Of a DNA stretch of 64,000 nt, positions 1,857-63,775 are shown one piece after another; positions within the stretch are counted from its first letter, which is position 1, and the number at the start of each line of letters is the position of its first letter. Below the pieces are notes generated by a model, which saw only the letters and a program-made list of their open reading frames with translations, was not told where the DNA came from and did no database searches. Made by a program: the position numbers and the translations under genes. Source of the stretch: a virus; the IMG/VR virus record IMGVR_UViG_3300006104_000752, positions 1 through 64,000 of that record. One strand, 5' to 3'.

Positions 1857-1940
1857 GTACCAATCCTGTCGTCGAAAGAAACTTTCCTTGACCTGTTTAG
1901 GGGTATAAGAATTCTTCGACAAAAAACATTGGAAACACTG

Positions 1941-1966
1941 GGTACTTTAAAAGTACCTGCTACAAT
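1941..1966 (+). promoter_or_regulatory. Palindromic operator overlapping a -10 box
   Basis: A perfect 8-bp inverted repeat with a one-base centre, GGTACTTTAAAAGTACC (1941-1957), followed three bases later by TGC-TACAAT whose -10 TACAAT is at 1961-1966. There is no good -35 at 17 bp, so the palindrome occupies the -35/spacer zone. It looks like a binding site for a dimeric repressor or activator controlling the HNH-like gene at 2004. Confidence 0.55.
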
Positions 1967-2003
1967 GCCAGAGTATCTTATCACATTGAAAGGTAAAAAG
2001 CAA

Positions 2004-2687
2004 ATGCCCTACAAAGACAAAGCAAAGCACAATGAGTGGAACCGTCAATGGCGTGAACGTAATCCCGATTATGCCAAGAAATACTACGAAGAGAATCGTG
2101 ACCACATTCAGTTTACCACCAGATACAACCAAGCCCTTGCAATGGGTATCGTGCGACCTGAGAAAAAACTGGAAAAAGTCGAGCCAAGAGTTTCAAAGAA
2201 GAAGATTTATCGTGAAGCGAAGAACCGACCCTGCGCTGATTGTGGTAAAAGTTTTCCGGCTTGCTCTATGGACTTTGACCACGTTCGAGGCGTGAAACTT
2301 TGCGACGTTAGTTCGCTTTCAAAGATGACGGCGGAGCAGTTGGTCGAAGAGATTGCCAAGTGCGACGTTATTTGCTCTAACTGCCACCGAGCAAGAACCG
2401 CAAAGCGCAAGGGGAAGAGGAAGCCACACCGAGTTCGTCTGATTGAGAGCCGAAAGCAATTCATTGAGAGTTGCAAGAACGTTCCCTGTATGGATTGCAA
2501 GGGAAGTTTCCACGTCTTCGCTATGGAGTTTTTCCACGTCAGAGGCAAGAAATCGTTTGGTATGTACGAGGCTTGCTACAAGGACACAATGCTTGTCATT
2601 GAAGAGATGGAAAAGTGCGACATTGTTTGCTCTAATTGCGCCCGTGTCAGAGCATCAGAGAAGCGACGCAAGAACAAAGTTTCTTAG
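2004..2687 (+). CDS. Tandem HNH-like zinc protein (227 aa)
   Basis: A basic protein with two copies of an HNH-type zinc module. The first has PCADCGKSF, then MDFDHVRG, then CDVICSNCHRART; the second has PCMDCKGSF, MEFFHVRG and CDIVCSNCARVRA. The second copy has lost the FDH aspartate and the NCH histidine, so it is probably a degenerate, DNA-binding-only copy. The start at 2004 is chosen because AAAGG lies 9 nt upstream and because the promoter-like -10 at 1961-1966 excludes earlier starts. Known relatives are phage HNH nucleases; nicking or homing activity is inferred for the first module only. Confidence 0.8.
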   Translation: MPYKDKAKHNEWNRQWRERNPDYAKKYYEENRDHIQFTTRYNQALAMGIVRPEKKLEKVEPRVSKKKIYREAKNRPCADCGKSFPACSMDFDHVRGVKLCDVSSLSKMTAEQLVEEIAKCDVICSNCHRARTAKRKGKRKPHRVRLIESRKQFIESCKNVPCMDCKGSFHVFAMEFFHVRGKKSFGMYEACYKDTMLVIEEMEKCDIVCSNCARVRASEKRRKNKVS

Positions 2688-2694
2688 CAAGGTA

Positions 2695-2740
2695 GGGAGT
2701 CTTCGGTAGGTCGTATCTCTACGGCTACCGAAGCACTCCC
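2695..2740 (+). ncRNA. Long intergenic stem-loop, possible structured RNA
   Basis: A 46-nt region that folds on itself: GGGAGT/ACTCCC (2695-2700 with 2735-2740), CTTCGGTAG/CTACCGAAG (2701-2709 with 2725-2733, one bulged C) and an inner CGTA/TACG closing a TCTC loop. Nineteen pairs in all. There is no T-run directly after it, so it is not a simple terminator. It lies between the HNH gene stop (2687) and a terminator (2785-2818). Between them is a ribosome-site-like GAAAGGAAGGG followed only by very short frames. Confidence 0.5.
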
Positions 2741-2784
2741 CGAACCTGCTTGAAAGGAAGGGTAATGCAATGAGCAGAGTGGGC

Positions 2785-2818
2785 TACTCGTTAATCAGTA
2801 TAGCGAGTAATTTTTTTT
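2785..2818 (+). terminator. Intrinsic terminator
   Basis: Stem TACTCG (2785-2790) pairs with CGAGTA (2804-2809), followed at once by eight T (2811-2818). It ends transcription of the HNH-like gene and its downstream hairpin, just before the promoter at 2831. Confidence 0.7.
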
Positions 2819-2830
2819 AAGTCAAATGAC

Positions 2831-2859
2831 TTGACTTTTTATTCTGTTTGTGTTATAGT
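2831..2859 (+). promoter_or_regulatory. Early promoter 1
   Basis: -35 TTGACT (2831-2836), 17-bp spacer, -10 TATAGT (2854-2859). The predicted start is the A of a CAT at 2865-2867. Confidence 0.8.
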
Positions 2860-2867
2860 GTTGTCAT

Positions 2868-2882
2868 CAAGGAAACGCCTTG
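2868..2882 (+). promoter_or_regulatory. 5'-terminal mRNA hairpin 1
   Basis: CAAGG-AAACG-CCTTG: a 5-bp stem with a five-base loop starting two bases after the predicted transcription start. It is one of a set with the same position and nearly the same loop but different stems (3114, 3962, 4755, 5310). Confidence 0.6.
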
Positions 2883-2903
2883 TGAAATACCGAAAGGAAC
2901 AGA

Positions 2904-3071
2904 ATGTCAAAAACCAGTCAGCAAAACAAGTTTGAAACCGAGGCAGAAGCAGAGGCTTTCGGCAAGGAGTTTGTAAAAACTTGGCCTTTTGTCTACTCGC
3001 CCGATTACAAGATTTTTAAGATTGACGAGACCTACATTGTGGAGACAACTCGTTATTCAAGTTGCGATTAG
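2904..3071 (+). CDS. Hypothetical small protein (55 aa)
   Basis: A 55-residue frame starting MSKTSQQNKFETEAEAEAFG, with GAAAGGA 5 nt upstream of ATG. The TEAEAEAFGKEF stretch and the later YKIFKIDETYIVETT strand suggest a small alpha-beta fold. It is the only gene between promoter 1 and promoter 2. No family recognised. Confidence 0.7.
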   Translation: MSKTSQQNKFETEAEAEAFGKEFVKTWPFVYSPDYKIFKIDETYIVETTRYSSCD

Positions 3072-3075
3072 TGAC

Positions 3076-3104
3076 TTGACAAAATAGATTTGATGTGCTA
3101 TACT
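3076..3104 (+). promoter_or_regulatory. Early promoter 2
   Basis: -35 TTGACA (3076-3081), 17-bp spacer, -10 TATACT (3099-3104), with TG at the extended -10 region (TGTGC-TATACT). Confidence 0.85.
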
Positions 3105-3113
3105 AGATAACAT

Positions 3114-3128
3114 CAACGAAAAGCGTTG
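3114..3128 (+). promoter_or_regulatory. 5'-terminal mRNA hairpin 2
   Basis: CAACG-AAAAG-CGTTG, again just after a CAT that marks the predicted start. The stem differs from hairpin 1 at paired positions, so base pairing is kept while sequence is not. Confidence 0.65.
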
Positions 3129-3150
3129 GTGATTAACCGAAAGGAAAATA

Positions 3151-3390
3151 ATGATTATCCGAATGAACTACACAGTCGAATACGACACTAACGAGCCAGA
3201 GTTTCGAGAAAACTACGAGCAGTGGATGGATGACTATCCGCTTGACCTTCCTAGCCTTATTGCGTTTTCCACTGACCGTTTCATTACCAACGAACGCATT
3301 AACGAGTTGGACATGACCGGCGCAAAGTTGGAAGTAACTGCCAGTGAGAACGGAATTGTTATCTACAAGAACAAGGCGCTGGTGAACTAA
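3151..3390 (+). CDS. Hypothetical protein (79 aa)
   Basis: Begins MIIRMNYTVEYDTNEPEFRE with GAAAGGAAAATA directly before ATG. An acidic protein of mixed alpha-beta character; the end (KLEVTASENGIVIYKNKA) looks like a beta hairpin. First gene of a coupled chain (TAATG to the next gene). No family recognised. Confidence 0.8.
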   Translation: MIIRMNYTVEYDTNEPEFRENYEQWMDDYPLDLPSLIAFSTDRFITNERINELDMTGAKLEVTASENGIVIYKNKALVN

Positions 3391-3566
3391 TGGCTAAGTT
3401 CATTATCAAAGACTGGATGGGAAACATCTTGTTCAAGGGGAAGACCTTTGAATCTTTTGAAGATGGCTGGTCTCACATTTACGAGAACGACCCCGAACCC
3501 GAAGAAGGTACGCCTGAATGGGTGGACGGTTGGTACGACGATTACTACGTTGAAGAGGTGAACTAA
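3390..3566 (+). CDS. Hypothetical acidic protein (58 aa)
   Basis: A 58-residue frame starting MAKFIIKDWMGNILFKGKTF and ending in a Trp/Tyr/Glu-rich tail (WVDGWYDDYYVEEVN). Both ends overlap neighbours as TAATG. The opening strands resemble the 61-aa protein at 4166 (also MAK, also rich in Trp, Tyr, Glu), so the two may be distant relatives. No family recognised. Confidence 0.75.
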   Translation: MAKFIIKDWMGNILFKGKTFESFEDGWSHIYENDPEPEEGTPEWVDGWYDDYYVEEVN

Positions 3567-3751
3567 TGAGTATTGAAGCACTTACTTCAGGCGAAGTTAC
3601 AAAAGTTGCCGTGTGTATTAAGTATGCGCTTGGAAGTCTTGAGGAAGGCAACATTGAGGCTTGTGTAGATAGCCTTAATAATGCCTTTTGGTACATTGGC
3701 ACTACAGTTGAAGAAATGAACAGTATGGACGAAGATGAGGTATGGGGCTAA
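3566..3751 (+). CDS. Hypothetical helical protein (61 aa)
   Basis: Starts MSIEALTSGEVTKVAVCIKY; predicted all-helical (TSGEVTKVAVCIKYALGSLEE, then CVDSLNNAFWYIGTTVEEM). TAATG coupling upstream; its TAA overlaps an ATG that opens only a 10-codon frame. No family recognised. Confidence 0.7.
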   Translation: MSIEALTSGEVTKVAVCIKYALGSLEEGNIEACVDSLNNAFWYIGTTVEEMNSMDEDEVWG

Positions 3752-3782
3752 TGAAAGCAACAATTAGAAAGTGGGATAACTA

Positions 3783-3935
3783 ATGAAGACGGAAGAAAAG
3801 TCTTGGACGCTGTTGGAGTGCTATGGGTGCTTGAAAGTAGGGGATTACAGCGTATTCGGACTACCTACAAAATGCCCCGATTGTGGTTCTTACGAGATTT
3901 GGTCAGCGCCAAAAAGAATGGACTTGACAAACTAA
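3783..3935 (+). CDS. Small zinc-ribbon protein (50 aa)
   Basis: A 50-residue frame starting MKTEEKSWTLLECYGCLKVG and containing CYGC and CPDCGSYEIW, two Cys pairs spaced like a zinc ribbon. It overlaps the stop of a 10-codon frame at 3751-3783. The next promoter's -35 TTGACA (3924-3929) lies inside its last codons. Likely a small nucleic-acid or protein-binding zinc protein; function unknown. Confidence 0.65.
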   Translation: MKTEEKSWTLLECYGCLKVGDYSVFGLPTKCPDCGSYEIWSAPKRMDLTN

Positions 3936-3952
3936 GTTTTATGTGCTATACT
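3924..3952 (+). promoter_or_regulatory. Early promoter 3
   Basis: -35 TTGACA (3924-3929), 17-bp spacer, -10 TATACT (3947-3952). The -35 is embedded in the 3' end of the zinc-ribbon gene. Confidence 0.85.
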
Positions 3953-3961
3953 GGATAGCAT

Positions 3962-3976
3962 CAGGGAAAAGCCCTG
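3962..3976 (+). promoter_or_regulatory. 5'-terminal mRNA hairpin 3
   Basis: CAGGG-AAAAG-CCCTG, directly after a CAT at the predicted start. Same loop as hairpin 2, different stem. Confidence 0.65.
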
Positions 3977-3995
3977 CTAGTTGAAAGGAATAAAT

Positions 3996-4166
3996 GTGGC
4001 AACATACACACTTGAATTGACCCCAGAGCAGTTTCGAGAACTGAGTAAGCACGTTATGGACACCGTTCAGAAGAAGCGTTTTAATTCTTCCGAGAAGTTG
4101 CAACAGTGGCTTAACGTTTGGTATCCAATTAAGGACGCTTTCTTCACAGCGAAGAAGGTGGACTAA
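3996..4166 (+). CDS. Hypothetical protein (56 aa)
   Basis: Start GTG at 3996, chosen because GAAAGGA lies 6 nt before it; an ATG two bases earlier is out of frame. The product begins MATYTLELTPEQFRELSKHV and is basic and helical (VMDTVQKKRFNSSEKLQQWLNVW). TAATG coupling to the next gene. No family recognised. Confidence 0.75.
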   Translation: MATYTLELTPEQFRELSKHVMDTVQKKRFNSSEKLQQWLNVWYPIKDAFFTAKKVD

Positions 4167-4351
4167 TGGCTAAACAATACCGATACACCGTCTACTACGA
4201 CGCCGAATCTAAAAAATGGCAACTGGAAGACTGGATGGAAAATGGCATCTACGACACGGATGCTGACGAATTTCTACCACTTGAAGAAATCGAACTGGAG
4301 ATTTACCAGCAAAATGAAAACTTGCTGGCAGAATTGATTGGGAGAAACTAA
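4166..4351 (+). CDS. Hypothetical acidic protein (61 aa)
   Basis: Starts MAKQYRYTVYYDAESKKWQL. The first half looks like a beta hairpin and the second like an acidic helix (LPLEEIELEIYQQNENLLAEL). Coupled to both neighbours by one-base overlaps. No family recognised. Confidence 0.75.
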   Translation: MAKQYRYTVYYDAESKKWQLEDWMENGIYDTDADEFLPLEEIELEIYQQNENLLAELIGRN

Positions 4352-4500
4352 TGGCTAAGAAAAATTACGCCGAGACACTTACCACCAACATTAAAGCGAC
4401 CTGTTGCCCTTACTGCGACAAGTTGTTTCCTCTAGGGGATGCCCGTTCAATGCGACGAGCATTTGAAAGGCACAATTGCAAGGGGAAGAACAATGCTTAG
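4351..4500 (+). CDS. Small C2HC-type zinc-finger protein (49 aa)
   Basis: Contains TCCPYCDKLF followed by RAFERHNC, a Cys-Cys/His-Cys arrangement typical of a single zinc finger, in a basic protein. Its last codons overlap the start of the next gene (4493). A nucleic-acid-binding role is likely; no family recognised. Confidence 0.65.
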   Translation: MAKKNYAETLTTNIKATCCPYCDKLFPLGDARSMRRAFERHNCKGKNNA

Positions 4501-4717
4501 GGCAAAAGTACGAGGTGAAGATTCAATTAGCGTTACCGCCTATGTGGGTGACGGTGGCGAAACAAAGCAGAGATGGATTGATGCCGAGCAACTTGGAGAA
4601 TGCCGAGTTGTGGGCAGTGACGATTACAACAACTACTTTCTAAGTTGGGATTCCCCCGAAGGAATCAGTCAGATTGTTGTTGCTGACGGAGCAGACTTAG
4701 ATTTTTTGATTGACTGA
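4493..4717 (+). CDS. Hypothetical protein (74 aa)
   Basis: Start ATG at 4493 is chosen because a GGGGAAGAA ribosome site precedes it and the product then opens cleanly with MLRAKVRGEDSISVTAYVGD. Predicted beta-rich, acidic at the end (DLDFLID). It ends one base before promoter 4. No family recognised. Confidence 0.7.
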   Translation: MLRAKVRGEDSISVTAYVGDGGETKQRWIDAEQLGECRVVGSDDYNNYFLSWDSPEGISQIVVADGADLDFLID

Positions 4718-4718
4718 C

Positions 4719-4747
4719 TTGACAAAATAGATTTTGTGTGCTACACT
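4719..4747 (+). promoter_or_regulatory. Early promoter 4
   Basis: -35 TTGACA (4719-4724), 17-bp spacer, -10 TACACT (4742-4747). The spacer is nearly identical to that of promoter 2 (AAATAGATTT shared). Confidence 0.8.
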
Positions 4748-4754
4748 GGTTACA

Positions 4755-4769
4755 TACCGAAAAGCGGTA
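4755..4769 (+). promoter_or_regulatory. 5'-terminal mRNA hairpin 4
   Basis: TACCG-AAAAG-CGGTA, extendable by one outer A-T pair. The predicted start is the A at 4754. Confidence 0.65.
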
Positions 4770-4790
4770 TTAAGAGAAAGGGATTAAATA

Positions 4791-5270
4791 ATGCACATTA
4801 TGCACCGTATCGCAGTAGAGGCAGAGAGCATTTCAGATGCCAAAATTGAAGTAGAAGACCACATTGAAAATGGATTTTTTAGTTGGTCTGATTGGGCAGT
4901 AGTTGGTGGTCGTTGGGATGACGAATTCACTGTTGTAAATTACGCCGAGAACCCAGAGAAGTTTAATGAACTCCTTAATAAGGCAAAAGAAAACCGAGCC
5001 ATTGAAGTTCAGAGTTTGATGGAGAGGGCGGACATTGAAGGAGTGTTGCAATCTTTGAAGGAATACAACGGCGAAGAGTTTGGTTTCGGCAAACTAGGTA
5101 TGGACGCTTACCGACTGGCAACGGCGCTAGAGGTTGCAAGCGGTTATTCAAAGCCCGACAGTTATTTCTACGACCTTACAGATGGCGGAACGAGCGACAA
5201 GTACGTCAAGGGTCGAATTGAAAAGAACCCTACTCAGCAGTATCTTGTTGCAGTGGACTTTCACTTTTAG
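4791..5270 (+). CDS. Conserved-type phage hypothetical protein (159 aa)
   Basis: Starts MHIMHRIAVEAESISDAKIE, with GAAAGGG 9 nt upstream. The region WSDWAVVGGRWDDEF resembles a motif I associate with small hypothetical proteins of actinobacteriophages, where an N-terminal domain holds VVGGRW. The C-terminal third (DSYFYDLTDGG...YLVAVDFHF) appears to be a strand-rich end. Sole gene of its unit. Function unknown. Confidence 0.8.
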   Translation: MHIMHRIAVEAESISDAKIEVEDHIENGFFSWSDWAVVGGRWDDEFTVVNYAENPEKFNELLNKAKENRAIEVQSLMERADIEGVLQSLKEYNGEEFGFGKLGMDAYRLATALEVASGYSKPDSYFYDLTDGGTSDKYVKGRIEKNPTQQYLVAVDFHF

Positions 5271-5273
5271 GAT

Positions 5274-5302
5274 TTGACAAACTAAGTTTAATGTGGTACA
5301 AT
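5274..5302 (+). promoter_or_regulatory. Early promoter 5
   Basis: -35 TTGACA (5274-5279), 17-bp spacer, -10 TACAAT (5297-5302). Starts four bases after the previous stop codon. Confidence 0.85.
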
Positions 5303-5309
5303 GGTTCAT

Positions 5310-5324
5310 CACCAAAAAGTGGTG
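5310..5324 (+). promoter_or_regulatory. 5'-terminal mRNA hairpin 5
   Basis: CACCA-AAAAG-TGGTG after a CAT at 5307-5309. Fifth member of the set. Confidence 0.65.
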
Positions 5325-5347
5325 GTGATTAACAGAAAGGATTTAAA

Positions 5348-5749
5348 ATGGGTGCAGACTTCATTTATTCGATTTGCCGTATTCCATACACCGGAGATGG
5401 AGACGTTTTGTTCAGCGGGTTCACTGTCGCTAGCGTAATAAAGCAACGTTTTTTAAAAATTGACCGTGAAGAAGTTTTGTCAAACCTTGAAGATTGTGGA
5501 ATCTATTACGACGGAGAAGACTTTGATTCTTTTGTTTCTGAAAAGGCTAACGAGGTTTTTAATTTTTTTGAAAGTGGTTGGAATCTCAGTGACACAGCAA
5601 TACTTGTTCTGGAAGGTAGGCACTACTACATCACCGGCGGAATGAGTTGGGGTGATACTCCAACAGACAGTTACGACATTATTGCTTTTATTAATGCACT
5701 AGAAATCACCGAAAAGCCAATTACAGACAGAGAGTTGGAGTTGGCATGA
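5348..5749 (+). CDS. Hypothetical protein (133 aa)
   Basis: Starts MGADFIYSICRIPYTGDGDV after AGAAAGGATTTAAA. It contains the segment GGMSWGDTPTDSYD, a pattern I associate with small phage hypothetical proteins, and many acidic residues. Overlaps the next start by 4 nt (ATGA). Function unknown. Confidence 0.8.
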   Translation: MGADFIYSICRIPYTGDGDVLFSGFTVASVIKQRFLKIDREEVLSNLEDCGIYYDGEDFDSFVSEKANEVFNFFESGWNLSDTAILVLEGRHYYITGGMSWGDTPTDSYDIIAFINALEITEKPITDRELELA

Positions 5750-15191: not shown

Positions 15192-15220
15192 TTGACTTTA
15201 AACATTCGTTCATCTATAAT
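15192..15220 (+). promoter_or_regulatory. Promoter of the recombination operon
   Basis: -35 TTGACT (15192-15197), 17-bp spacer, -10 TATAAT (15215-15220). It diverges from the replication promoter; the two -35 boxes are 13 bp apart, so both could be controlled by one bound protein. Confidence 0.85.
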
Positions 15221-15245
15221 GTGGTCATTCTTCGAAAGGAATGAA

Positions 15246-16274
15246 ATGGCAAAGAAAACATCCGCCAAAAGCGACTCACTAGAGTCAATTATTAGCGACA
15301 TTAACAAGCAATTTGGGGCTGGCTCTATTATGCGCCTAGACGCATCGGACGTTGTGCCGGTTGAGGTAATCCCTACTGGTATTCTCCCATTGGACATGGC
15401 TTTGGGCGTAGGTGGTCTTCCTAAGGGTCGTATCATCGAAATGTACGGTCCGCCATCAAGTGGTAAGTCTACGCTTTCATTGCACTCGATTGCAGAAGCC
15501 CAGGCTCTTGGGATGGTGTGTGCTTACATTGACGTTGAACACGCATTTGACCCTATTTACGCAGAGGCTATTGGGGTTGACGTTCCTTCCCTGATTTTTG
15601 CCCAGCCAAACAATGCTGAGCAGGCTCTTGAAATGGCTATTCGTTTGACAAATAGCGGTGAGGTTGCAGTTGTTGTCATTGACTCTGTAGCCGCTTTGGT
15701 TCCACGAGCCGAACTTGAAGGCGAAATGGGAGATGCACACGTTGGTCTACAACCAAGAATCGTTGGTCAGGCAATGCGCAAGATTACAGGTGCGGCTTCT
15801 AAGACCGGAACCATTGTCATCTTTATTAACCAACTGCGTGAATCTATTGGAAAGATGTATGGACCTAGCGAATACACACCTGGTGGAAAGTCTTTGGGCT
15901 ATGCGGCTTCTGTTCGACTAGACATTCGCCGTATTCAGACAATTAAGAAGGGTGACGAAGCAACAGCCAACCGCACCCGTGTCAAGGTTGTAAAGAACAA
16001 GGTTGCGCCACCTTTCAAGCAAGCAGAGTTTGACCTTGAATACGGTGTCGGCGTTCCAAAGGCAAACGCTTTGTTGGACTGCGCCATTGACTTTGGCATT
16101 CTTCGACAGGCTGGCGCTTGGATTTACTACGGTGGCGAGCAGTTTGCTAACGGAAGAAACAAGGCAAAGGCACGCATTGAGGAATCGCCAGAACTTTACG
16201 ACGAAATTTACGCCGAGGTAATTAAGTTGGCAGGAAAAAACATTGAAGTAGGTGTTGACAATGACGAAGATTAA
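15246..16274 (+). CDS. recA: RecA recombinase (342 aa)
   Basis: A full-length bacterial-type RecA. Walker A is GPPSSGKST (residues 68-76); other signatures are AYIDVEHAFDP, LIFAQPNNAEQALEM, VVVIDSVAALVPRAE with Walker B, and INQLRESIGKMYG covering the L2 region. The start at 15246 is set by GAAAGGA just upstream; the ATG at 15241 is out of frame. RecA forms filaments on single-stranded DNA and exchanges strands. It heads an operon with a LexA-type HTH, a nuclease, an annealing protein and SSB. Confidence 0.97.
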   Translation: MAKKTSAKSDSLESIISDINKQFGAGSIMRLDASDVVPVEVIPTGILPLDMALGVGGLPKGRIIEMYGPPSSGKSTLSLHSIAEAQALGMVCAYIDVEHAFDPIYAEAIGVDVPSLIFAQPNNAEQALEMAIRLTNSGEVAVVVIDSVAALVPRAELEGEMGDAHVGLQPRIVGQAMRKITGAASKTGTIVIFINQLRESIGKMYGPSEYTPGGKSLGYAASVRLDIRRIQTIKKGDEATANRTRVKVVKNKVAPPFKQAEFDLEYGVGVPKANALLDCAIDFGILRQAGAWIYYGGEQFANGRNKAKARIEESPELYDEIYAEVIKLAGKNIEVGVDNDED

Positions 16275-17504: not shown

Positions 17505-17704
17505 TGAATGAAAATTTATCAATTCCATTTTGGCCAGGCGACATTGTTGAACATTTGCCATCAAGGGTTGTTTTTCGTATTGACGCAATTACCATTTACG
17601 AAAATGGCGATTACAGGTATTACACTTCAGATTCAAGGGTCTACAGTTCCAGTAATCTTCGTTTGATTCAAACTAGAAAAGAAAATAGTGAACTTGACAA
17701 ATAA
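17504..17704 (+). CDS. Hypothetical small beta-rich protein (66 aa)
   Basis: Starts MNENLSIPFWPGDIVEHLPS. The order of short strands (DIVEHLPSRVVFRIDAITI, YRYYTSDSRVYSSS) resembles a small SH3-like or KOW-like barrel. TAATG coupling to the nuclease gene. The next promoter's -35 lies in its last codons. Function unknown. Confidence 0.75.
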   Translation: MNENLSIPFWPGDIVEHLPSRVVFRIDAITIYENGDYRYYTSDSRVYSSSNLRLIQTRKENSELDK

Positions 17705-17722
17705 AGTTTGCTGTGCTACAAT
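17694..17722 (+). promoter_or_regulatory. Internal promoter before the ERF gene
   Basis: -35 TTGACA (17694-17699), 17-bp spacer, -10 TACAAT (17717-17722), same TGTGC extension as the early promoters. Confidence 0.85.
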
Positions 17723-17728
17723 GTTTTT

Positions 17729-17744
17729 GACCGCCAAGATGGTC
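17729..17744 (+). promoter_or_regulatory. Leader hairpin, variant form
   Basis: GACC-GCCAAGAT-GGTC with one further G-T pair possible, positioned at the predicted mRNA 5' end like the early hairpins but with a larger loop and weaker stem. Confidence 0.4.
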
Positions 17745-17766
17745 ACCACAATAGAAAGGAATTAAA

Positions 17767-18453
17767 ATGCAGAGTGTTGAAATTAACGAACTCGCTTCCG
17801 CTTTAGTTAAAGCACAAGGGGAGTTCTCAGCAATTCCCAAGTCATCAAACAACCCGTTCTTCAACAGCAAGTACGCGGCTTTGCCCGAAGTAGTAGCGGC
17901 GGCTACCCCAATTCTTGCCAAGAATGGTTTGGCAGTTAGCCAATTCATCACATATACCGAAGATGGTAGTGATGCTCTTATTACGCACCTCATCCATGAA
18001 TCAGGTCAGTACATTTCATACTCAATGAAGTTGCACTTGGTTCCGGACAAGAATGGTTTTATAACGCCTCAGGCTCAGGGTAGTGCAACGACTTATGCTC
18101 GTCGTTATTCATACATGAGCGTTTTGGGTCTGGTTGCAGATGAAGACGATGACGGCAACGCCGCTTCTCAGTCTCAGCCCAATACAGGCACTCAGTCAAA
18201 GTCCAGCGAAAAGCCTGCCAGTGATTTCAAGTCAAAGGTTGCTAAGGCTGCTGGACAATCAACCGGTGCAAACATGGCAACCGAAAAGATGTGCAAGATG
18301 ATTTGGGCTATTTGCCACAAGTCACTCAACTATGACGACCTTAAGCAGTACGAGGTAATTGAAAGCATTGTTGAGCGTCCGGTCGAAAGCCTTGAATCAC
18401 TTACGTTTGATGAAGCCAAGGCAGTCATCGAACATCTACAATCTCTACAATAG
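17767..18453 (+). CDS. erf: ERF-family single-strand annealing protein (228 aa)
   Basis: Matches the Essential Recombination Function family: LASALVKAQGEFSAIPKS, NPFFNSKYAALPEVV, then GLAVSQFI, and the LVPDKNGFITPQAQGSATTY segment leading into the ARRYSYMSVLGLVADEDDDG signature. A disordered Ser/Gln/Lys linker and a small helical C-terminal domain follow (residues 165-228). ERF proteins anneal complementary single strands produced by the partner nuclease. Its own promoter (17694-17722) would raise its level relative to the nuclease. Confidence 0.93.
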   Translation: MQSVEINELASALVKAQGEFSAIPKSSNNPFFNSKYAALPEVVAAATPILAKNGLAVSQFITYTEDGSDALITHLIHESGQYISYSMKLHLVPDKNGFITPQAQGSATTYARRYSYMSVLGLVADEDDDGNAASQSQPNTGTQSKSSEKPASDFKSKVAKAAGQSTGANMATEKMCKMIWAICHKSLNYDDLKQYEVIESIVERPVESLESLTFDEAKAVIEHLQSLQ

Positions 18454-22379: not shown

Positions 22380-22640
22380 TTATCCTTCAGGTAAAAGTGT
22401 TTCGATTTCAATTGTATCTGCAAAATCATAAATGCAAAGTTCTGGTGATAAATCTTTTGTCCACATTTGAGGTGTTTTAACTATTAAACACAATGGGGGA
22501 CAAAAATCTTTTAAAAAGACTGAACCAGAAGCGTCAATTATCGAAACGGTTCCAGGTTGCACCTGTGTTTGAACATAGGTTTGACTTTGATACCAATAAA
22601 CCGGCGTTCCAAAATAACCAAATTTAAATCCGGTAGACAT
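22380..22640 (-). CDS. Hypothetical protein following the collagen-like fibre (86 aa)
   Basis: Starts [20 protein letters not shown] at the TAATG overlap with the giant fibre gene. Strand-rich with several aromatic residues and FCPPLCLIV. Tight coupling suggests a partner of the fibre, such as a tip or assembly factor. No family recognised. Confidence 0.7.
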   Translation of the reverse strand: MSTGFKFGYFGTPVYWYQSQTYVQTQVQPGTVSIIDASGSVFLKDFCPPLCLIVKTPQMWTKDLSPELCIYDFADTIEIETLLPEG

Positions 22641-25600
22641 TAGTAGGCACCCATAATCATCATTGTTTGGACATCGTTATCTTGCATCGCACCGGAACCA
22701 TTTGTTGCCACAACCGTACCATTCAATGTAATCGTACCAGTAAAGGTTGGAGATGCTGAACCGACAAGGGTCGTGCTGGACGGGATTGTAGTGCCATTTA
22801 CGCTTGTAACGTTTGGCAAAGATGTTGTTGCTGATGTAATAAGAGTTGCGCTTGACGGAATTGTTGTTCCGTTGACAGAAGTAACGCTTGGCAACGATGT
22901 TGTGGTGCTTGTAATTAACGTTGCGGACGAAGGGATTGAAGTCCCGTTAATTGACGTTGCGGTTGCAACTCCAAGAACTGGTGTAACCAGCGTGGGAGAA
23001 GTAGAAAGAACGTTTGCACCGCTACCAGTTGAAGTTGTTACTCCAGTACCACCATGCAAAACACTAAGAGTTCCAGTCGTGACATTTCCTACTCCAACTA
23101 CGGTCGGGGATGAAGCGGTTCCGCCAAGGTCGCCCGAAAGTTGGATGATTCCTTCTACGCTCGATGTTGCGGCGGTAGGAATCTGACCAAATGCGGCGGC
23201 ATCAGTAGATGCAGTTCCATTGGCAAGACCAGTAATCTTTTGACTATTCATAGCAAGAGTGCCATAAATTGTCGTGTTACCGGCTGCGCTAATGGTCATC
23301 GCATCAGTTGCGCCGTTATTAACAACAAAGTGAATCGGCTTTGAACTGTATGTACCAATTGCAAGGTCTGTGGTTGCTGATGCAACGTAAACGTTGCCTG
23401 GGGAGTTAAAAGCACCAGAGCCTTGGAAGCCTGAAGAGTTAATACCAATTTCACCATAGTTGGAGTTGTTGGTTCCCTGGTCATTAGAAATGTTGAAGTT
23501 TGCGCTGGCCTGGTATCCATTGCTAAGGTTCTGAATAATTACCTGGGTGTAGTTGTTAACGTTTTCAGCAATTGATTCCATAATGTTGACATCGGAGTAA
23601 CCCAATGCTGAACCAATTTGTGATGGGCCGTAATTGGTGGAAACAGTGCTTGAAGGTACGTTAGTTACGTCAAGACTAGGAACAGAAAGGGCGCCCGTCA
23701 TAGTTCCGCCGGAAGTTTGTAACGCACCGGCTACGGTCGTGTTGGCGGAAATAATTGACTCTACGTTTGTCGTTGCAACAAGTGTAGGGTTAGGGTAGGA
23801 ACCTGTAAGGTCACCACCAGCGGAACCCGTGGAAGGGCCGGTTGCACCCTGATATCCTTGGTAACCCTGCGAACCTTGCGAGCCCGTGCTTCCCTGGTAG
23901 CCTTGCGGGCCTTGTGCACCAGTTGCACCGGTGGAGCCTTGTGAGCCCTGTGAACCCTGTGAACCAGTGGAACCCTGAACGCCCTGAGAGCCTGTGTTTC
24001 CCTGGTAGCCCTGAACTCCTTGATTACCCTGGTAGCCCTGATTTCCTTGCGTACCCTGGAAACCCTGAGAACCTTGAGCGCCCTGTACGCCAACTGCTCC
24101 GTCAAGGTTTACAGTCCATGCAGAGTAAGTTCCCGAACCAACAACGTCACCAGGGGTTGTTCCAACTGTAAAGTTGAAAGCACCAGTGATGGAGTCATAT
24201 GTGTTAACAGTTGCTACAACGTAGTTAGAACTATTGTAGGCAATTACAGCACCTTGCCCCGGAGTCCATGAAAGACCCGTTGCAATAGTTATGGTTGCAG
24301 TTCCAGTTCCTAGCGTGTAAGAAGTTGTACTTGTGCTTGCGTAGTGGTCGCTGTACCCCTGGAAACCCTGATTTCCCTGGTACCCCTGGTACCCTTGCGT
24401 TCCTTGATTGCCCTGATAACCCTGCGGTCCCTGGGCACCGGTTGTTCCTTGGTATCCCTGGGAACCAGTAGCACCCTGGACGCCCTGAGAACCAGTAGCG
24501 CCCGTGGAGCCTTGTGGTCCGGTTGCGCCCTGAGAACCCGTTGAGCCCTGAGCGCCGGTTGAACCTTGCGCACCGGTACCGCCTTGGTACCCTTGATATC
24601 CTTGCGAGCCCTGAGAGCCTTGTGCACCTGTAGAACCCTGAGAACCAGTTGAACCCTGGTACCCCTGTGGACCTTGCGCACCTTGGTAACCTTGGCTACC
24701 CTGGGCACCAGTATTACCTTGTGCACCAGTAGCGCCTTGTGCGCCAGTGGAACCCTGTGCTCCAGTTGAACCCTGAGCACCAGTCGAACCTTGGAATCCT
24801 TGAGTACCTTGATTACCTTGGAATCCTTGTGGGCCAGAATCACCTTGATACCCTTGCGCTCCCATCGTCCCCTGTGCACCAGTAGCACCAGTGGACCCTT
24901 GGGCACCAGTAGAGCCCTGATAGCCCTGGTAACCTTGTGTTCCCTGAGCACCAGTTGCACCGGTTGCACCTTGCGTACCTTGGTATCCCTGAGTTCCCTG
25001 AGCGCCTGCCGAGCCTTGAGCACCAGTAGAACCTTGGTAGCCCTGAACGCCTTGGAAACCCTGGCTTCCTTGCGCTCCGGTGGAGCCTTGTGCTCCAGTC
25101 ACACCCTGGTAGCCTTGGCTACCTTGTGCGCCGGTTGAGCCCTGATTGCCTTGGTATCCTTGAAATCCCTGGTTGCCTTGAGAACCCTGGGCTCCAGTGG
25201 CCCCTGTAGAACCTTGTGCTCCAGCCGAGCCTTGAACCCCCTGATAACCTTGATTTCCCTGAGTGCCCTGAGAGCCAGTGGCACCTTGAGCGCCGGTAAA
25301 ACCTTGTGCTCCTTGATTTCCCTGTGAACCTTGCGAGCCTTGAAAACCTTGTGCGCCTTGAACGCCCTGGTAGGTGATTTGCTGTGCCGTTACAATTACG
25401 CCAGGAGTTTGGGGTGTTGTTGGGGTAGTGCCTGCCGCAAGTGTGTCAATTTGGACACTTGTTGAAGAAGCAGCCCACATAAGTTGCAGATAATCGCCTG
25501 CACTCAAAGTCAAAACATAGTTGATAGCAGCAATCATTGCACCGGTACCACCGTGTGAGGTACCTGGAAGTCCATATTCAGAATTGGTATCTACAACATC

Positions 25601-28600
25601 TGTGCCGTTCTTGCGAAGCCATACGTCAACCGTGTCACCATTGCTGTCGCTGCTGTAGAACTGAATTGAATATTGTAAATTGTAAGTACCAGCGTAAGCA
25701 AAAGTAATTTGATTACCGCTAACAATTGTAACTCCGTTACTTTCGGCAACAGTGTTTATGTTTACTGGGTAGGCGGTTGTTGTGCTGATAATCGTTTGAA
25801 TAGTTGTGTCGTACGCTGAAATGTAGTGGGCAATAACGCCGCCAGCGCCAGGAACACCTTGAGGACCTTGAGGGCCCTGACCTGAAACCTGTGTCCAGTT
25901 AATGTTGTCGGTGCCAATAATAATTGAACCGTCAGAGTACGAACCGGATGAAATCATTTCATAGGTCTTACCCATGTTTGTTGTACCGGCAATTACGAGC
26001 GTGTAGTCACCAGCACCAACTTCGCTTTGAACGCTGTCGTTGTAGTCGGACGAACGAGTAAGGACCCATTTGGTCGAACCAGAACCTGTTGCTGTTACGG
26101 TGTAAATACCGTTGTACTTAGCATTCGTGTTTGATGCAACAAGTACGCGTTGATTAGCGGCAAGGGTCACACCGTCAATTACAAGAGCGCCGTTTGCGGT
26201 TGCGGTCAGGGTTGCACCGATACCATAACCACCGTTTGCGTCAATGGTACCGGCGGTGTAAGTAGATGAATTTGTGGTACCAAAAGTATCTGCAACTTGA
26301 ACTGATGCGTGAGCATTTAAGGCAGATGGCGCACCTTGGGCACCTTGGTTTCCTTGGTATCCTTGAGAGCCTTGCGCCCCCTGGTGGCCCTGATTTCCTT
26401 GGAATCCCTGATTCCCCTGGAAGCCCTGACTGCCTTGGTATCCCTGGTTCCCCTGCGAACCGGTTGCCCCTTGTGTGCCAGTGGAGCCCTGAACACCTTG
26501 ATAACCCTGCGTGCCCTGAAAACCTTGATTGCCTTGAGTTCCTTGCGTACCTTGTGAGCCTTGCGCTCCAGTAGAGCCTTGTGCACCGGTTACACCCTGG
26601 TATCCCTGAGCGCCTTGCGAGCCCGTGGCGCCTTGAGTACCTGTCTGGCCTTGGTAGCCCTGGTTTCCTTGATAGCCCTGGAATCCCTGTGCACCAGTCA
26701 CACCTATTGAACCTTGAGCACCAGTGCCTCCTTGAGCACCTTGGTATCCCTGGTATCCCTGGTAACCTTGCGAACCAGTTGCTCCGGTCGAACCCTGGGC
26801 GCCCTGAGCACCCGTGGAGCCTTGCGCTCCGGTAGAACCCTGAGAACCAGTGCTTCCCTGAGCGCCTTGATTTCCCTGCGCACCTTGCGTACCTTGGTAG
26901 CCTTGAGTTCCTTGAGCGCCAGTGTTTCCAGTTGCGCCTTGAACGCCCTGATAGCCCTGCGCACCCTGCGCACCAGTTGAACCTTGGAAACCTTGATTTC
27001 CTTGATAACCCTGAGCACCTGTGGAGCCAGTTGCACCCTGTGAGCCCTGTGAACCTGTTTGTCCCTGGTTACCTTGAGTTCCCTGGTTTCCCTGAGTGCC
27101 TTGATAACCTTGAACACCCTGGGCTCCGGTCGAGCCTTGGTAGCCCTGTGCCCCCTGTTGGCCTGTTGAACCCTGAGCGCCCTGAGCACCAGTAGAACCG
27201 GTTGAACCTTGAGAGCCCTGCGAACCCATTGGGCCTTGTGCGCCTGTTGCGCCTTGTGAGCCCGTTGCACCGGTTGAACCCTGCGCTCCAGTTTGTCCTT
27301 GGTAGCCTTGCGTGCCCTGATTACCCTGGAACCCCTGGTTGCCTTGAGTGCCTTGACTACCCTGAGCGCCTTGGAACCCTTGGTTACCTTGGCTACCCTG
27401 GAATCCTTGCGCACCCTGAACACCGGTTGCACCGTCAAGGTTGACACTCCAAGAAGAATATGTGCCAGAACCCATAATGGTATTAACGGCAACGACCATA
27501 GCGCCAGTACCGGCGTTGTAGGAAGTAACCAAACCATTCATGTAATTTGACGTGTTGTATGCGATTACAACGCTTTGACCAGCGGTGTAGGCAAGGCCGG
27601 TTCCAATCGTAAGCGATTGAGATGTGGCGGAAATAGTTAATGATGTAGTCGAAGAAGTGTGGTAAATGTCACCAGTGACGCCCTGAACACCCTGATTACC
27701 TTGGTAGCCCTGGGTGCCCTGTGCACCTGTAGGGCCCTGGTATCCTTGCGCACCTTGAACTCCTTGGTACCCCTGATGGCCCTGAGTGCCTTGTGCGCCA
27801 GTAGAACCTTGGGCACCGGTTGCTCCGGTAGTACCTTGGGAACCGGTAGGGCCTTGAAAACCCTGGTTTCCTTGAGTACCTTGAAAACCTTGAGGGCCCT
27901 GTGCACCAGTATCACCCTTGGTACCAGTGGTACCAGTTACACCTTGAGTACCTTGATTACCTTGGAATCCTTGATTTCCTTGCGTTCCTTGAACACCTTG
28001 AACACCTTGAACACCCTGATTACCTTGGTATCCTTGTGGTCCTTGAACTCCAGTTGCACCCTGGACTCCTTGTGCTCCTGTTGCTCCGGTTGAGCCTTGA
28101 GGGCCAGTAGAACCCTGATAGCCCTGAGCACCTTGGAAACCCTGTGGTCCTTGAATCTTTGCATAAGTCAAAGCCTCATTAGCAATGTTAATTGCATCAA
28201 CGACGCCTTGGTTAAATTGAAGGCTTTCTACCGCAGAAGCACCGTGATAAAGGTCGTTTACCTTTGTTTGTGTAGTCTGGTGATAGTGGGTGTGAATAAT
28301 GGTTGCGTCATACCCACGACCGTTGTTCCCCTCGTCGTCATACCATACAGTAATAAATGAGTTTTCAATGTCAACAGCAGAACAAAGAACTGTTTCTTCG
28401 TTTGTTGCTCCGGGGTTAATTGTAATGACAAAAGGCCCAGACGTTCCAAGCGGGTTTGTGGTCGCTTGGCCCGTTGGGCTAACCTCGTACCAGCCAGCAG
28501 CAGAAGCAATCGTAATTGTCTGAAATGGCGTGTAGTAATCCGGAATGTCTGTGGTGATATAGGTGGGTGGTACTGAACCACCGTACGAACGTATGGTTGT

Positions 28601-28618
28601 CTCGGTAGGGAATGCCAT
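22640..28618 (-). CDS. Giant collagen-like tail fibre (1992 aa)
   Basis: Four long runs of Gly-X-Y triplets, mostly GxQG pairs such as GAQGYQG, at about residues 155-313, 398-762, 1082-1422 and 1508-1590. They are separated by globular parts: two related modules (about 314-397 and 1423-1507, sharing IAYNxSNY and SGTYSxWxVNLDG), a middle region 763-1081 with a C1q/BclA-like part (from [12 protein letters not shown]), and a C-terminal beta-rich module shared with the fibre at 36313. Gly-X-Y repeats form trimeric triple helices in phage fibres. Gln-rich Y positions and no hydroxyproline fit bacterial collagens. Probably a receptor-binding or surface-adhering fibre. Confidence 0.88.
23850..28155 (-). 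repeat. Gly-X-Y coding repeats of the giant fibre
   Basis: About 9-nt periodic repeats encode the four collagen-like runs: roughly 27680-28155, 26335-27425, 24355-25375 and 23850-24095. Long open frames on both strands here are by-products of the biased repeats. The high identity makes the region prone to length change by recombination. Confidence 0.85.
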
Positions 28619-36312: not shown

Positions 36313-37320
36313 TTAAATAGCACCCATTAAATTCATAATGAGTTCGTCTGATGTGTAAATACTTCCTGAACCGTTGGTGCTTGTCACAACACCTTGAATG
36401 GTTATTGTTCCGGTGAAGGTTGGCGAAGCGCCAGAAATAAGAGTTGTGCTTGCCGGGATAGTTGTTCCGTTTACCGTTGTCAGGTTTGGGAGAGAAGTTG
36501 TTGCCGTTGTTACAAGCGTTGCGCTTGATGGAATTACTGTTCCGTTGATTGACGTTGCGGTTGCAGCGCCAAGCGTTGGGCTTACAAGTGTTGGTGAGTT
36601 AGACAGAACATTGTTTCCGCTACCCGTTGATGTGGTAACTCCCGTACCACCATTTGCAGTGCTAAGAACACCCGAAGAAACGTGCGTTACAGAAGTCACT
36701 GTTGGCGACGTTGCTGTTCCGCCAAGGTCACCAGAAAGTTGAATCAAACCCTCTGCCGTGGTTGTTGCACCGGAGTACGAAGGGATTGAAGCCCAAGCAG
36801 CAACACCAGAAACAACGGTCAAAACTTGACCATTTGTAGCACCGGACAATGATGGAAGTCCAGATACGGTCGTCCAAATGGGTCCGGAAGAACTAGAAGT
36901 TAGTACTAGACCGTTTGTGGTTGTAGTTGGGATAATGTTCACCCAAGCAGAACCGTTGTAATACTTCAGGTTTCCGTTTGGGTTTGTAGTGTCGTACCAT
37001 ACTTGATTCAAGAATGGGGTTGATGGAGACGTGTTGCTAATGTAAACCGCGGAACCAACAACATTCTGCCAAGCAGAACCGTTCCAGTAGTTCAGTCCGT
37101 AAGAACTGCTTGCTGGGTTTGTGCACCACCAGAACTCTCCACCAACTGCGCCGTTAGTAGCGGTCCCTGATTCAAATACAGGGGCTGATGCAGATTGGTA
37201 ATAGATTGGAACTTCACTGTCAATGAAAGTTGCAATACCTTGAATGTCCGATGCAATAACTGCCGAGTCACTGCTTAAAGGATACGGTACGCCAACTCGC
37301 GTCGTTGAGCCACTAGCCAT
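36313..37320 (-). CDS. Tail fibre protein (335 aa)
   Basis: Starts MASGSTTRVGVPYPLSSDSA, with two copies of a Trp-containing short repeat (GLNYWNGSAWQNVVG and LKYYNGSAWVNI) in the middle. The last 145 residues share with the giant fibre the sequence order [31 protein letters not shown], then PSFTGTI-like and a final GA. A common C-terminal module therefore joins two fibres. It follows tail protein I, so it may be the baseplate-attached fibre. Confidence 0.8.
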   Translation of the reverse strand: MASGSTTRVGVPYPLSSDSAVIASDIQGIATFIDSEVPIYYQSASAPVFESGTATNGAVGGEFWWCTNPASSSYGLNYWNGSAWQNVVGSAVYISNTSPSTPFLNQVWYDTTNPNGNLKYYNGSAWVNIIPTTTTNGLVLTSSSSGPIWTTVSGLPSLSGATNGQVLTVVSGVAAWASIPSYSGATTTAEGLIQLSGDLGGTATSPTVTSVTHVSSGVLSTANGGTGVTTSTGSGNNVLSNSPTLVSPTLGAATATSINGTVIPSSATLVTTATTSLPNLTTVNGTTIPASTTLISGASPTFTGTITIQGVVTSTNGSGSIYTSDELIMNLMGAI

Positions 37321-61123: not shown

Positions 61124-63775
61124 TTAGTTAAAGGGACTTCCAAAGTCACCAACAAATAAACCACCAAAATTAGGTTGTTGAAGTGGAGTTGAATCCCCTT
61201 CTTTAACAACAACCATAGTATCAGGAACGCTTACCTTTGGCATTGGATTTTCGTCATAGAAGACTGGGCGAGCAAAGTTCCCTGCATACATGCAGACATA
61301 TCTTAGCGCGTCAGCAATGTGGTCATCGACGTTACGAGTTTCGCAGTCGTCTGGTTTCGCCTTGCTTCTTGGTAGTGCCGGAATTTGTTCAATAAACTGT
61401 GGGCACGTATCTTCAAAAACGTGAATCATCGGGCAGCGTTCCCAGCCCATAGCGCGGTGCATGTCGCACGCAGGACCGTCGTTTAGGTACTGGTGTACAC
61501 GTGACCAACCGTTGATACGGTCGTTGTCCGCTTTGATGATTCCGCAGCCTTCTATACCATAGATGTCTGCGATTGACATGGGAGTTCCGCGACTACCCCA
61601 CATAGAGGGGTCAGCGACTCGCATGACTTCGGATTCACCGTGAGAGCGTTCTGCCTCAAGGATTAATTTTGCCTGGTCATCAGCATTGACGCCAGAAACA
61701 CAGATTTCTCTGTAGACCCAGATTCGGCTATCATTGTCAACAGCAATCCACACGACCGCAAATGGGTCTCGGAATCCATAGTCAATACCGGCGTATCTAG
61801 GCCATTCTTTGGGCATGTCAAAGGAACGTACAACGTGCTTTGAGTACTGCCACTGTTCGAAGAACTGTCCGACCATTGCGTCCCAGTCACCGTCACGCAT
61901 CGCGGCACGACGGCGGGGGTCTGGAATCGAGTCAAGAACAGCGTGATAACCTTCGTTAACGTGAGGGTTATCTGTTACCTTTGCCTGAATAAAGGCAACG
62001 GTGCGACTTCGCTTGCTATCCCCGACTTCTTCGGTGTAGCGTATTTTCCCTCGTTTTGTGGGATTAATGAATCGGTCTTTAAGATATTTGTGACCGACGC
62101 CACCAGGGTTGGTGGCCAAGCGAAGACCTATAACGGGAACCAAACGGCTACCCGAACGAAGACGCTCTTCAATGTGCTGGATAACAGCAGGAAGCATTTG
62201 AGAGGCTTCGTCAATGTAGAACGCCTGATACTCACCACCGAGGATTCGGGATGCGTCAACCAGGTTTTCTGCATATGTAAAGTTAATAACCGAGCCATTT
62301 GAGAACTTCAAGACCTTGTTGGTTGAGTTCCACTTGGCACCGATGTCTCTTGCATAATTCCATTTTGCAAGTTGAGCCAAAAATGACTCTTCAAGTTCCG
62401 GGTATGAACGACGGAAACAACCAATCTTCATACCAGGGAAATTCGCGGCGTTCCAGAGCGCATCCATCAAGAATGCAGCGGTGTTGTGCGTAGGAATAAG
62501 GTTTTCAGTTACCAGGAAAAGGTGGTCTGGTGAAGAAACCTTAAGACACTTCATGTCTCGCTTTCCAACACGCTCCGCAGAAACAATGTAACGGAAGTTT
62601 GTGGTACGGCGTTCTTTGCCCAAAAATGGCTCAAGACGTTCTGCTTTGCGGGTCAGGCTAAAAACCTGAACCTTTGCACGGAACTTAACGCGCCATGCAG
62701 GGCCACAGTCTTTACCGTCCAGTTTCGTACGAAATTCACGAACACTAACCTTGTGCCCAAAAGAGCGTGCCAAAAATGCTACGGCTTCGGTAATGTCTTT
62801 GTTGGTGTTAGCAAACTCAACGGTGCCATTCTTAAGGCAGTTTCCGTCAGTGTCCATCAAACCACGAAGCAATTCAAGACGTTGTTCGGCGGATGTGAAA
62901 AGGTATTTAGCCGGAACGTGCTTATTTACAAGAAGGTTAAGTTCCTTTAGTTGCTTTGAAAGCCCATCAAAGGTAACGACACGAAGATTACGTTCAAATC
63001 GGTTGGACTTTACGGGAATGCTCTTTGAGCACTTTTCGAAAATCTCATCGTCAATTCCGCAGATTCTTCCGCTTCCTGAATAACCATCACCAAGCCATGC
63101 ACCAAGAACGTAAGGGTCGATTGGAAGAATGCGTTCTGGCATCTCCAACGTCCCACAAACTGGTACAGCGTGGTTGTTGCGACCGTCTGGGGTCTTAAGA
63201 GTGTCTACAATTTCAGCAGTGGTACGAACGGTTCCAGTCGGAACGTCCTTGTATTCGTAATCACGTTCGGAATTGCGCTTTTTTAACGCTTCTGAGAACT
63301 TAATCGACTTGATGTTACCGGCACGTGAAGAACGCTTTGCCTGACGGCGTTCCCGCCACTCTGGGTCGAGACGTGTCAGTTGAGCGAGTTCCTTGGCATC
63401 AAAAGTGAGCCAAAGGTGTTCATCGTTTACAATTACGGTTGAGCCGTCGTCAAAAGTAAGTTCATAACCTTCATGGTAGTGAACAGGTGACTCTTTTAGA
63501 ACTTCGTAAGGCTTTCCGTCACGTCCGAAGATGGTATCACCAGCGTGAATATCCTTCAAAAGTTTGAAGCCATCGGGCGTGGGGATGGAAGTGGAGTTAA
63601 TATCCAGTTCCTTACCACCACCAGCCGCACCACCATAAAGAATTGCATCAATTCTTTCGGCAGATGCAGCATGAAATACTTGCTGTCGTTCAGTCGGTTG
63701 ATACCCCAAAATGCTAAAGACATCTACCTGTTCGGGGACGACTGCGTTTGAGATAAACTTACTGAAATTTGACAT
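61124..63775 (-). CDS. Terminase large subunit interrupted by an intein (883 aa precursor)
   Basis: Extein part: ILYGGAAGGGK up to residue 55 and TAAFLMDALWN from residue 432 together form the Walker A motif GGAAGGGKT. Later come FYIDEASQM (Walker B) and the nuclease part YAGIDYGFRDPFAVVWIAVD and VDDHIADALRYVC. After splicing the protein is 507 aa, normal for TerL. The enzyme drives DNA into the prohead and cuts it. The intein splits the ATP-binding loop, so packaging needs splicing. Confidence 0.93.
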   Translation of the reverse strand: MSNFSKFISNAVVPEQVDVFSILGYQPTERQQVFHAASAERIDAILYGGAAGGGKELDINSTSIPTPDGFKLLKDIHAGDTIFGRDGKPYEVLKESPVHYHEGYELTFDDGSTVIVNDEHLWLTFDAKELAQLTRLDPEWRERRQAKRSSRAGNIKSIKFSEALKKRNSERDYEYKDVPTGTVRTTAEIVDTLKTPDGRNNHAVPVCGTLEMPERILPIDPYVLGAWLGDGYSGSGRICGIDDEIFEKCSKSIPVKSNRFERNLRVVTFDGLSKQLKELNLLVNKHVPAKYLFTSAEQRLELLRGLMDTDGNCLKNGTVEFANTNKDITEAVAFLARSFGHKVSVREFRTKLDGKDCGPAWRVKFRAKVQVFSLTRKAERLEPFLGKERRTTNFRYIVSAERVGKRDMKCLKVSSPDHLFLVTENLIPTHNTAAFLMDALWNAANFPGMKIGCFRRSYPELEESFLAQLAKWNYARDIGAKWNSTNKVLKFSNGSVINFTYAENLVDASRILGGEYQAFYIDEASQMLPAVIQHIEERLRSGSRLVPVIGLRLATNPGGVGHKYLKDRFINPTKRGKIRYTEEVGDSKRSRTVAFIQAKVTDNPHVNEGYHAVLDSIPDPRRRAAMRDGDWDAMVGQFFEQWQYSKHVVRSFDMPKEWPRYAGIDYGFRDPFAVVWIAVDNDSRIWVYREICVSGVNADDQAKLILEAERSHGESEVMRVADPSMWGSRGTPMSIADIYGIEGCGIIKADNDRINGWSRVHQYLNDGPACDMHRAMGWERCPMIHVFEDTCPQFIEQIPALPRSKAKPDDCETRNVDDHIADALRYVCMYAGNFARPVFYDENPMPKVSVPDTMVVVKEGDSTPLQQPNFGGLFVGDFGSPFN
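62483..63610 (-). mobile_element. Class 3 intein with LAGLIDADG endonuclease in TerL
   Basis: 376 residues (56-431 of the precursor). No N-terminal Cys, Ser or Ala; it begins with Glu. The W-C-T set of class 3 inteins is present: Trp two residues after the block B His (DEHLW, intein H65 and W67), Cys in block F (KCLKV, C355) and Thr at G:5 before the final His-Asn (PTHN, T374). The next extein residue is Thr. Homing endonuclease motifs VLGAWLGDGY and LRGLMDTDGN lie at about 168-256. Class 3 inteins use the block F Cys as first nucleophile. Confidence 0.88.

Follow-up and report, generated by a model that had tools for sequence, protein, structure and literature searches.

A repeated promoter-linked hairpin at the predicted 5' ends of phage mRNAs has a conserved RNA structure and may protect transcripts from decay

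INTRODUCTION

Short hairpins near the 5' ends of bacterial mRNAs can stabilize the transcript, as described for ompA and papA in Escherichia coli and in Bacillus subtilis (PMC3997798), and phage T4 gene 32 is cited in PMC8948821 as having a stabilizing hairpin in its 5' leader. The stem sequence of such elements is free, and the ribosome site lies just downstream. Here we describe similar hairpins in a 64,000-nucleotide (nt) stretch of DNA (the window) that makes up most of a 67,987-base IMG/VR virus record (IMGVR_UViG_3300006104_000752), in which a promoter, a stem-loop at the predicted RNA 5' end and a ribosome site recur as a unit in front of small genes. In contrast to the known examples, these stem-loops are repeated at many promoters of one genome and have a constrained loop, and their stabilizing effect is one that we infer. 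Pairing rather than stem sequence was retained here too, as judged from covariation and from unrelated stems at homologous genes.

Other described elements share part of this arrangement. The SAS/ESAS elements of Cluster K actinobacteriophages are likewise repeated before a subset of non-structural genes and combine inverted repeats with a ribosome-site motif, but they are conserved sequences (13 base pairs [bp], with 17-bp repeats) for which their authors saw little support for an mRNA hairpin, whereas the hairpins described here are free in sequence with pairing kept. A single match to the 13-bp SAS (GGGATAGGAGCCC), with two mismatches, was present in the window, in the late region at 36782, against 0.54 expected, and SAS was not above chance. 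The conserved 17-bp inverted repeat of ESAS was absent, the window stems being 5 to 9 bp long and all different. The boxB hairpins of lambda-type nut sites, which are read by N proteins, resemble the present ones in having a stem of about 5 bp and an A-rich pentaloop near an early transcript start, and in both cases the loops vary between phage lineages. boxB loops have the form GNRNA. None of the loops observed here had that form; they were A-M-A-M-G or A-A-R-U-M, in a register without a G...A loop.

The gene 43 translational operator of T4 and RB69 (PMC3014915) is also a hairpin that precedes a ribosome site and whose loop bases are conserved among relatives, but it serves a single autoregulated gene, whereas here many unrelated genes are involved and no reader protein is known. 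The virion RNA polymerase promoters of phage N4 (PMC4496689) are likewise early phage promoters, and they include a short hairpin with a stem in which part of the sequence is free. In N4, however, the hairpin is formed in DNA upstream of the start, has a 3-nt loop and is used by a phage polymerase, whereas the hairpin described here is in RNA, downstream of a host-type promoter.

RESULTS

A preliminary description of this DNA had listed five early promoters (2831, 3076, 3924, 4719 and 5274), each followed by a 5-bp stem-loop, and had proposed selection on RNA structure. The promoters, stems and loops were all recovered as listed, except that three stems (3076, 4719 and 5274) extend beyond 5 bp. 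The promoters have the form TTGACA/T, 17 nt, TGTGNTA and then the -10 box, which is a near-consensus extended -10 arrangement, and the leader order is -10 box, Y-A motif, stem-loop, GAAAGG-type Shine-Dalgarno sequence and start codon. The Y-A motif, 6 to 8 bases past the -10 box, was taken as the predicted start, which leaves 0 to 2 unpaired nt before the stem and puts the start codon about 40 bases downstream; these transcript starts, and the early timing of the genes, are putative. The 5-bp stems are perfect, with an AAAAG loop at four sites and AAACG at one. A weaker form that had been placed near 17729 was also present, with a promoter at 17694 and one G-U pair in its stem (Table 1).

Twelve hairpins with A-M-A-M-G loops exhibited two-sided changes at all five stem pairs, with 98.3% of cells paired. 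The covariation score was 1.018, compared to 0.345 ± 0.071 for shuffled sequences, none of which equalled it, and a control with slid pairing partners scored at most 0.21. In a scan over a wide start range that allowed one mismatch per stem, with G-U and A-C allowed equally, the interior mismatches were 13 G-U and 0 A-C; this count overstates the number of events because some hairpins are related by descent, although its direction is uniform. A narrower scan, which missed late-starting hairpins and allowed two mismatches per stem, detected 6 G-U and 1 A-C. Because the mismatches of the wide scan were G-U and never A-C, the structure resides in the sense RNA and not in a DNA palindrome. Promoter-adjacent inverted repeats can be operators, and N4 has hairpin promoters (PMC4496689), so that a palindromic operator or an extruded DNA hairpin might be envisaged. 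However, in addition to the G-U asymmetry, the stem sequence was different at every window site, and the hairpins, with 5-nt loops, lie downstream of the -10 box of a complete sigma70-type promoter, whereas those of N4 are centred at -11 and have 3-nt loops. A DNA-level element is therefore considered highly improbable.

The spacers of the promoters at 3924 and 5274 are identical at 15 of 17 bases, as are those of the promoters at 3076 and 4719, whereas only 4 and 6, respectively, of the 10 core stem bases are shared; the loop bases are all identical. On this comparison, stems change fast and are repaired by compensation while the loop is held.

By chance, the whole window with both strands counted should contain about 0.54 Watson-Crick stems of 5 bp around AAAAG, ACAAG or AAACG. 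With six related loops, the two strands of the 64 kb yielded nine such stems: the five plus-strand ones were all at the five promoters, and none of the four on the minus strand was at such a promoter. Hairpins were present in 6 of 9 strong-promoter leaders of the window, against 0.35 to 0.96 expected from dinucleotide shuffles (maximum of 4 in 1,000 shuffles). Relatives had a pentaloop hairpin in 21 of 31 distinct promoter leaders, against a dinucleotide shuffle mean of 1.8 (maximum of 8 in 1,000). Both in the window and in relatives, hairpin position was tied to the promoter and predicted start. In contigs outside the group that have equally strong repeated promoters (L277, L266 and L321), the hairpin was missing at nearly all sites. 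One of these, the unrelated viral contig L277 (IMGVR_UViG_3300020079_000012), contains over 20 strong promoters of a similar type (TTGAC...TATAAT) within 12 kb, at which the scan used detected no hairpins.

The key relatives had been retrieved by promoter-only patterns, with no hairpin letters in the query. An initial loose promoter pattern matched mostly unrelated contigs, which were reused as negative controls, and contig G001, near-identical to the window across the hairpin region, was excluded as an independent case. Among the relatives, G045 (31.9 kb) is the richest, with about 17 promoters of this kind, the majority followed by hairpins. A search with a 159-amino-acid (aa) protein profile plus a hairpin pattern returned only known contigs and the distant L522 (26% identity), and the independent phages of IMG/VR in which the element was confirmed number only a handful. 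The relative G049 (L388 14879, minus strand) has a natural variant of the CAGGG cassette in which the stem is broken (CAGAA versus CCCTG) and the promoter is intact.

The preliminary description had made its proposal depend on recurrence of the element upstream of homologous genes in relatives, and this was found, with different stems, at three genes. In front of the 159-aa gene, the stem is ATACCG/CGGTAT in the window and CATCAACG/CGTTGGTG in the G045 ortholog (57% identical). At the Erf gene, TGACCG/TGGTCA in the window corresponds to AGTCTT-AAAG-AAGACT in the G045 ortholog. A 95-aa gene near the end of the record (~66,725) had a near-start hairpin in 12 of 19 usable distinct leaders, compared to 3.5 ± 1.7 hairpin leaders after shuffling (0 of 1,000 shuffles attained 12); the stems were mostly unrelated, the loops were 3 to 8 nt long, and one close pair of leaders exhibited a compensatory change of C-G to U-A (GCTT/AAGC to GTTT/AAAC). 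The genes behind the cassettes mostly differ between phages, while the cassettes are common to them; the CATCAACG hairpin, for example, precedes a different gene in the window than in G045. The array promoters are clearly related and their sites not fully independent, which would be compatible with chance or with descent of duplicated promoters in the absence of selection on structure. Given stems that have diverged further than the promoter spacers and nonetheless pair, the lack of relation between the stems at homologous genes and the outcome of the shuffle controls, that explanation has next to no credibility.

Overall, the computations show a conserved RNA structure that covaries, is specific to the sense strand, is tied to promoters and recurs at homologous genes. 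Because stem sequence varies yet pairing persists, these comparisons indicate that what evolution preserves is an RNA shape at the predicted mRNA start. The original proposal of selection on RNA structure was thus borne out by the covariation, the sense-strand G-U bias and the recurrence in relatives with different stems.

Possible functions of the leader were compared by folding 22 leaders and their shuffled counterparts. The unpaired probability of the first three bases was 0.40 in real leaders and 0.75 in shuffled leaders, while that of the Shine-Dalgarno sequence was 0.65 and 0.66, respectively. Since folding hides the first bases and leaves the Shine-Dalgarno sequence unchanged, sequestration of the 5' end is favoured. 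The free stems, and the loops that are free outside the early class, likewise fit a role that depends on shape only. We therefore favour, with a probability of about 0.5, a portable cassette whose 5' hairpin protects the mRNA end. Such a cassette would consist of a strong sigma70-type promoter, a stem-loop at or a few bases from the RNA 5' end, a Shine-Dalgarno sequence 1 to 10 nt downstream of the hairpin and then the start codon. The hairpin would function as RNA by burying the 5' end, which would slow 5'-end-dependent decay (RppH-like conversion followed by RNase E or RNase J entry) and so raise the yield from the short mRNAs of small phage genes. The longer half-life and the enzymes avoided are presumed.

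The hairpin occupies nearly the entire leader from the start to the Shine-Dalgarno sequence, and it could instead block upstream pairing with the latter and fix the distance for ribosome entry. This insulating or ribosome-loading role is unlikely, as the predicted Shine-Dalgarno accessibility was equal in real and shuffled leaders and the spacing from hairpin to Shine-Dalgarno sequence differs between classes. A separate observation concerned the UvsX-like gene, with a promoter at 15192, whose leader (15192 to 15248) is predicted to fold as TCATTCTT-CGAA-AGGAATGA, hiding the Shine-Dalgarno sequence; this fold may be a separate translational control.

The loops suggested a different type of function. 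Those seen were AAAAG, ACAAG, AAACG, AAGTA, AAATA and AAGTC, and the early-class loops were A-M-A-M-G closed by G-C or A-U or A-A-R-U-M closed by C-G. Constrained loops on free stems could reflect operators whose loop is read by an RNA-binding regulator, encoded by the phage or the host, that would exert joint control over all cassette genes. This regulator would be either a translational repressor acting next to the Shine-Dalgarno sequence or an antiterminator recruited near the transcription start. The hairpin ends close to the Shine-Dalgarno sequence, as repressor operators do. In two homologous cassettes the stems are unchanged and the same A/C change occurs at loop position 2 (AAAAG in the window and ACAAG in relatives), and the AAAAG loop that predominates in the window array was not found in the early arrays of G045, G044, G046 and G047. 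However, these parallel loop changes number only two, position 3 of the A-A-R-U-M loop switches freely from A to G and from G to A among orthologs, and the loops at the Erf and 95-aa genes are unrelated. Some early proteins were covered by family searches, which yielded no match and no candidate RNA-binding protein; boxA and an N-like arginine-rich protein were not sought in depth. Antitermination would have little to act on, because the plus strand from 2810 to 5749 lacks terminator-like sites except for a weak candidate inside a gene (4402). A loop-reading regulator is thus a possibility to which we attach tentative weight. A specific form of it, about which we are more doubtful, is that the loops serve as a regulon's address label, with a phage-encoded protein reading the A-rich pentaloop and co-switching many separately transcribed small genes; its specificity would have shifted between lineages (AAAAG to ACAAG), with loops changing as a set and stems free.

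Two further candidates were rejected. None of the six hairpins was called as a plus-strand terminator or trailed by a T run, which excluded an intrinsic terminator or attenuator, and the stem pairing seen here would be lost in a boxB-like register with a GAAAA or GACAA loop. Searches of positions 2600 to 5500 with the Rfam 15 covariance models gave only a sub-threshold sok match (20.1 bits, against a gathering score of 59).

The portal protein of the window has 77 relatives among viral contigs. Because the top-ranked cultured-phage match of UvsX was that of Mycobacterium phage Kumao (57% identical) and the sole bacterial genome with a portal relative in a portal profile host search was that of Streptomyces aureus (51% identical), the virus is probably an actinobacteriophage. 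By our reading of the IMG sample numbers, the source samples are mostly lakes and bogs, pointing to a freshwater phage. BLASTN of the hairpin region against cultured phages gave zero matches. The 79-, 159- and 133-aa products and an open reading frame (ORF) at 3981 to 4166, which overlaps the 56-aa ORF, were without a PHROG match; the 159-aa product had a Pfam match below the cutoff only. An HNH endonuclease gene (1929 to 2687, plus strand) adjoins the hairpin-promoter array. Elsewhere, a likely tail protein of 1,992 aa that contains many collagen repeats is encoded on the minus strand (22640 to 28618), and an 883-aa terminase (61124 to 63775, minus strand) has, upstream of its Terminase_6N match, a LAGLIDADG domain match at residues 297 to 348, which is possibly an intein or inserted homing endonuclease.

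Table 1. Promoters and hairpins of the window, with the genes they precede
Feature	Coordinates	Strand	Sequence	Remarks
Promoter 1	2831..2859	+	TTGACT-17-TATAGT	TG-extended
Hairpin 1	2868..2882	+	CAAGG-AAACG-CCTTG	Precedes 55-aa ORF 2904-3071
Promoter 2	3076..3104	+	TTGACA-17-TATACT	TG-extended
Hairpin 2	3111..3131	+	CATCAACG-AAAAG-CGTTGGTG	One G-U; precedes 79-aa ORF 3151-3390
Promoter 3	3924..3952	+	TTGACA-17-TATACT	TG-extended
Hairpin 3	3962..3976	+	CAGGG-AAAAG-CCCTG	Precedes 56-aa ORF (GTG start) 3996-4166
Promoter 4	4719..4747	+	TTGACA-17-TACACT	TG-extended
Hairpin 4	4754..4770	+	ATACCG-AAAAG-CGGTAT	Precedes 159-aa ORF 4791-5270
Promoter 5	5274..5302	+	TTGACA-17-TACAAT	TG-extended
Hairpin 5	5306..5328	+	TCATCACCA-AAAAG-TGGTGGTGA	One G-U; precedes 133-aa ORF 5348-5749
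Promoter 6	17694..17722	+	TTGACA-17-TACAAT	Upstream of Erf-like gene 17767-18453
Hairpin 6 (weaker)	17728..17745	+	TGACCG-CCAAGA-TGGTCA	One G-U; unrelated loop

DISCUSSION

Stabilization of mRNA by 5' hairpins has precedents in both E. coli and B. subtilis (PMC3997798), and the preliminary description had suggested protection of the mRNA end. This suggestion agreed with the sequestration of the 5' end in silico at unchanged Shine-Dalgarno access but fitted the AAGTA class less well. Several points weigh against protection. A folding program would show reduced 5'-end accessibility for any 5' hairpin, and the starts were predicted, so that the folding result is better at excluding insulation of the Shine-Dalgarno sequence than at proving protection. 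Hairpins of the AAGTA class in G045 and G044 have their stem 3 to 6 nt from the predicted 5' end, a spacing at which classical end protection should be weaker; RppH of B. subtilis acts on ends with two or more unpaired bases (PMC3997798), and RppH-type enzymes could act on this class. A role of shape alone would not require the degree of conservation seen in the early-class loops. Finally, because several promoters lack a hairpin despite their strength (7249, 1856 on the minus strand and 21998 on the minus strand) and the stem is broken in G049, the hairpin is not essential at every site.

No description of an element combining promoter, 5' hairpin and ribosome site was found in the literature covered, which did not extend to subscription papers. 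As far as we found, a repeated cassette of this type before small genome-variable genes is an undescribed RNA element. It is statistically strong and simple to test experimentally. If 5' protection is its function, these phages build mRNA stability into each promoter, in hosts that are probably Actinobacteria, where 5'-end-dependent decay has been studied less than in E. coli or B. subtilis. The cassettes would constitute a new multi-gene RNA regulon if a protein reads the loop. In addition, the cassette flags small, unannotated and probably early genes of uncultured freshwater phages, whose products may act in host takeover or counter-defence.

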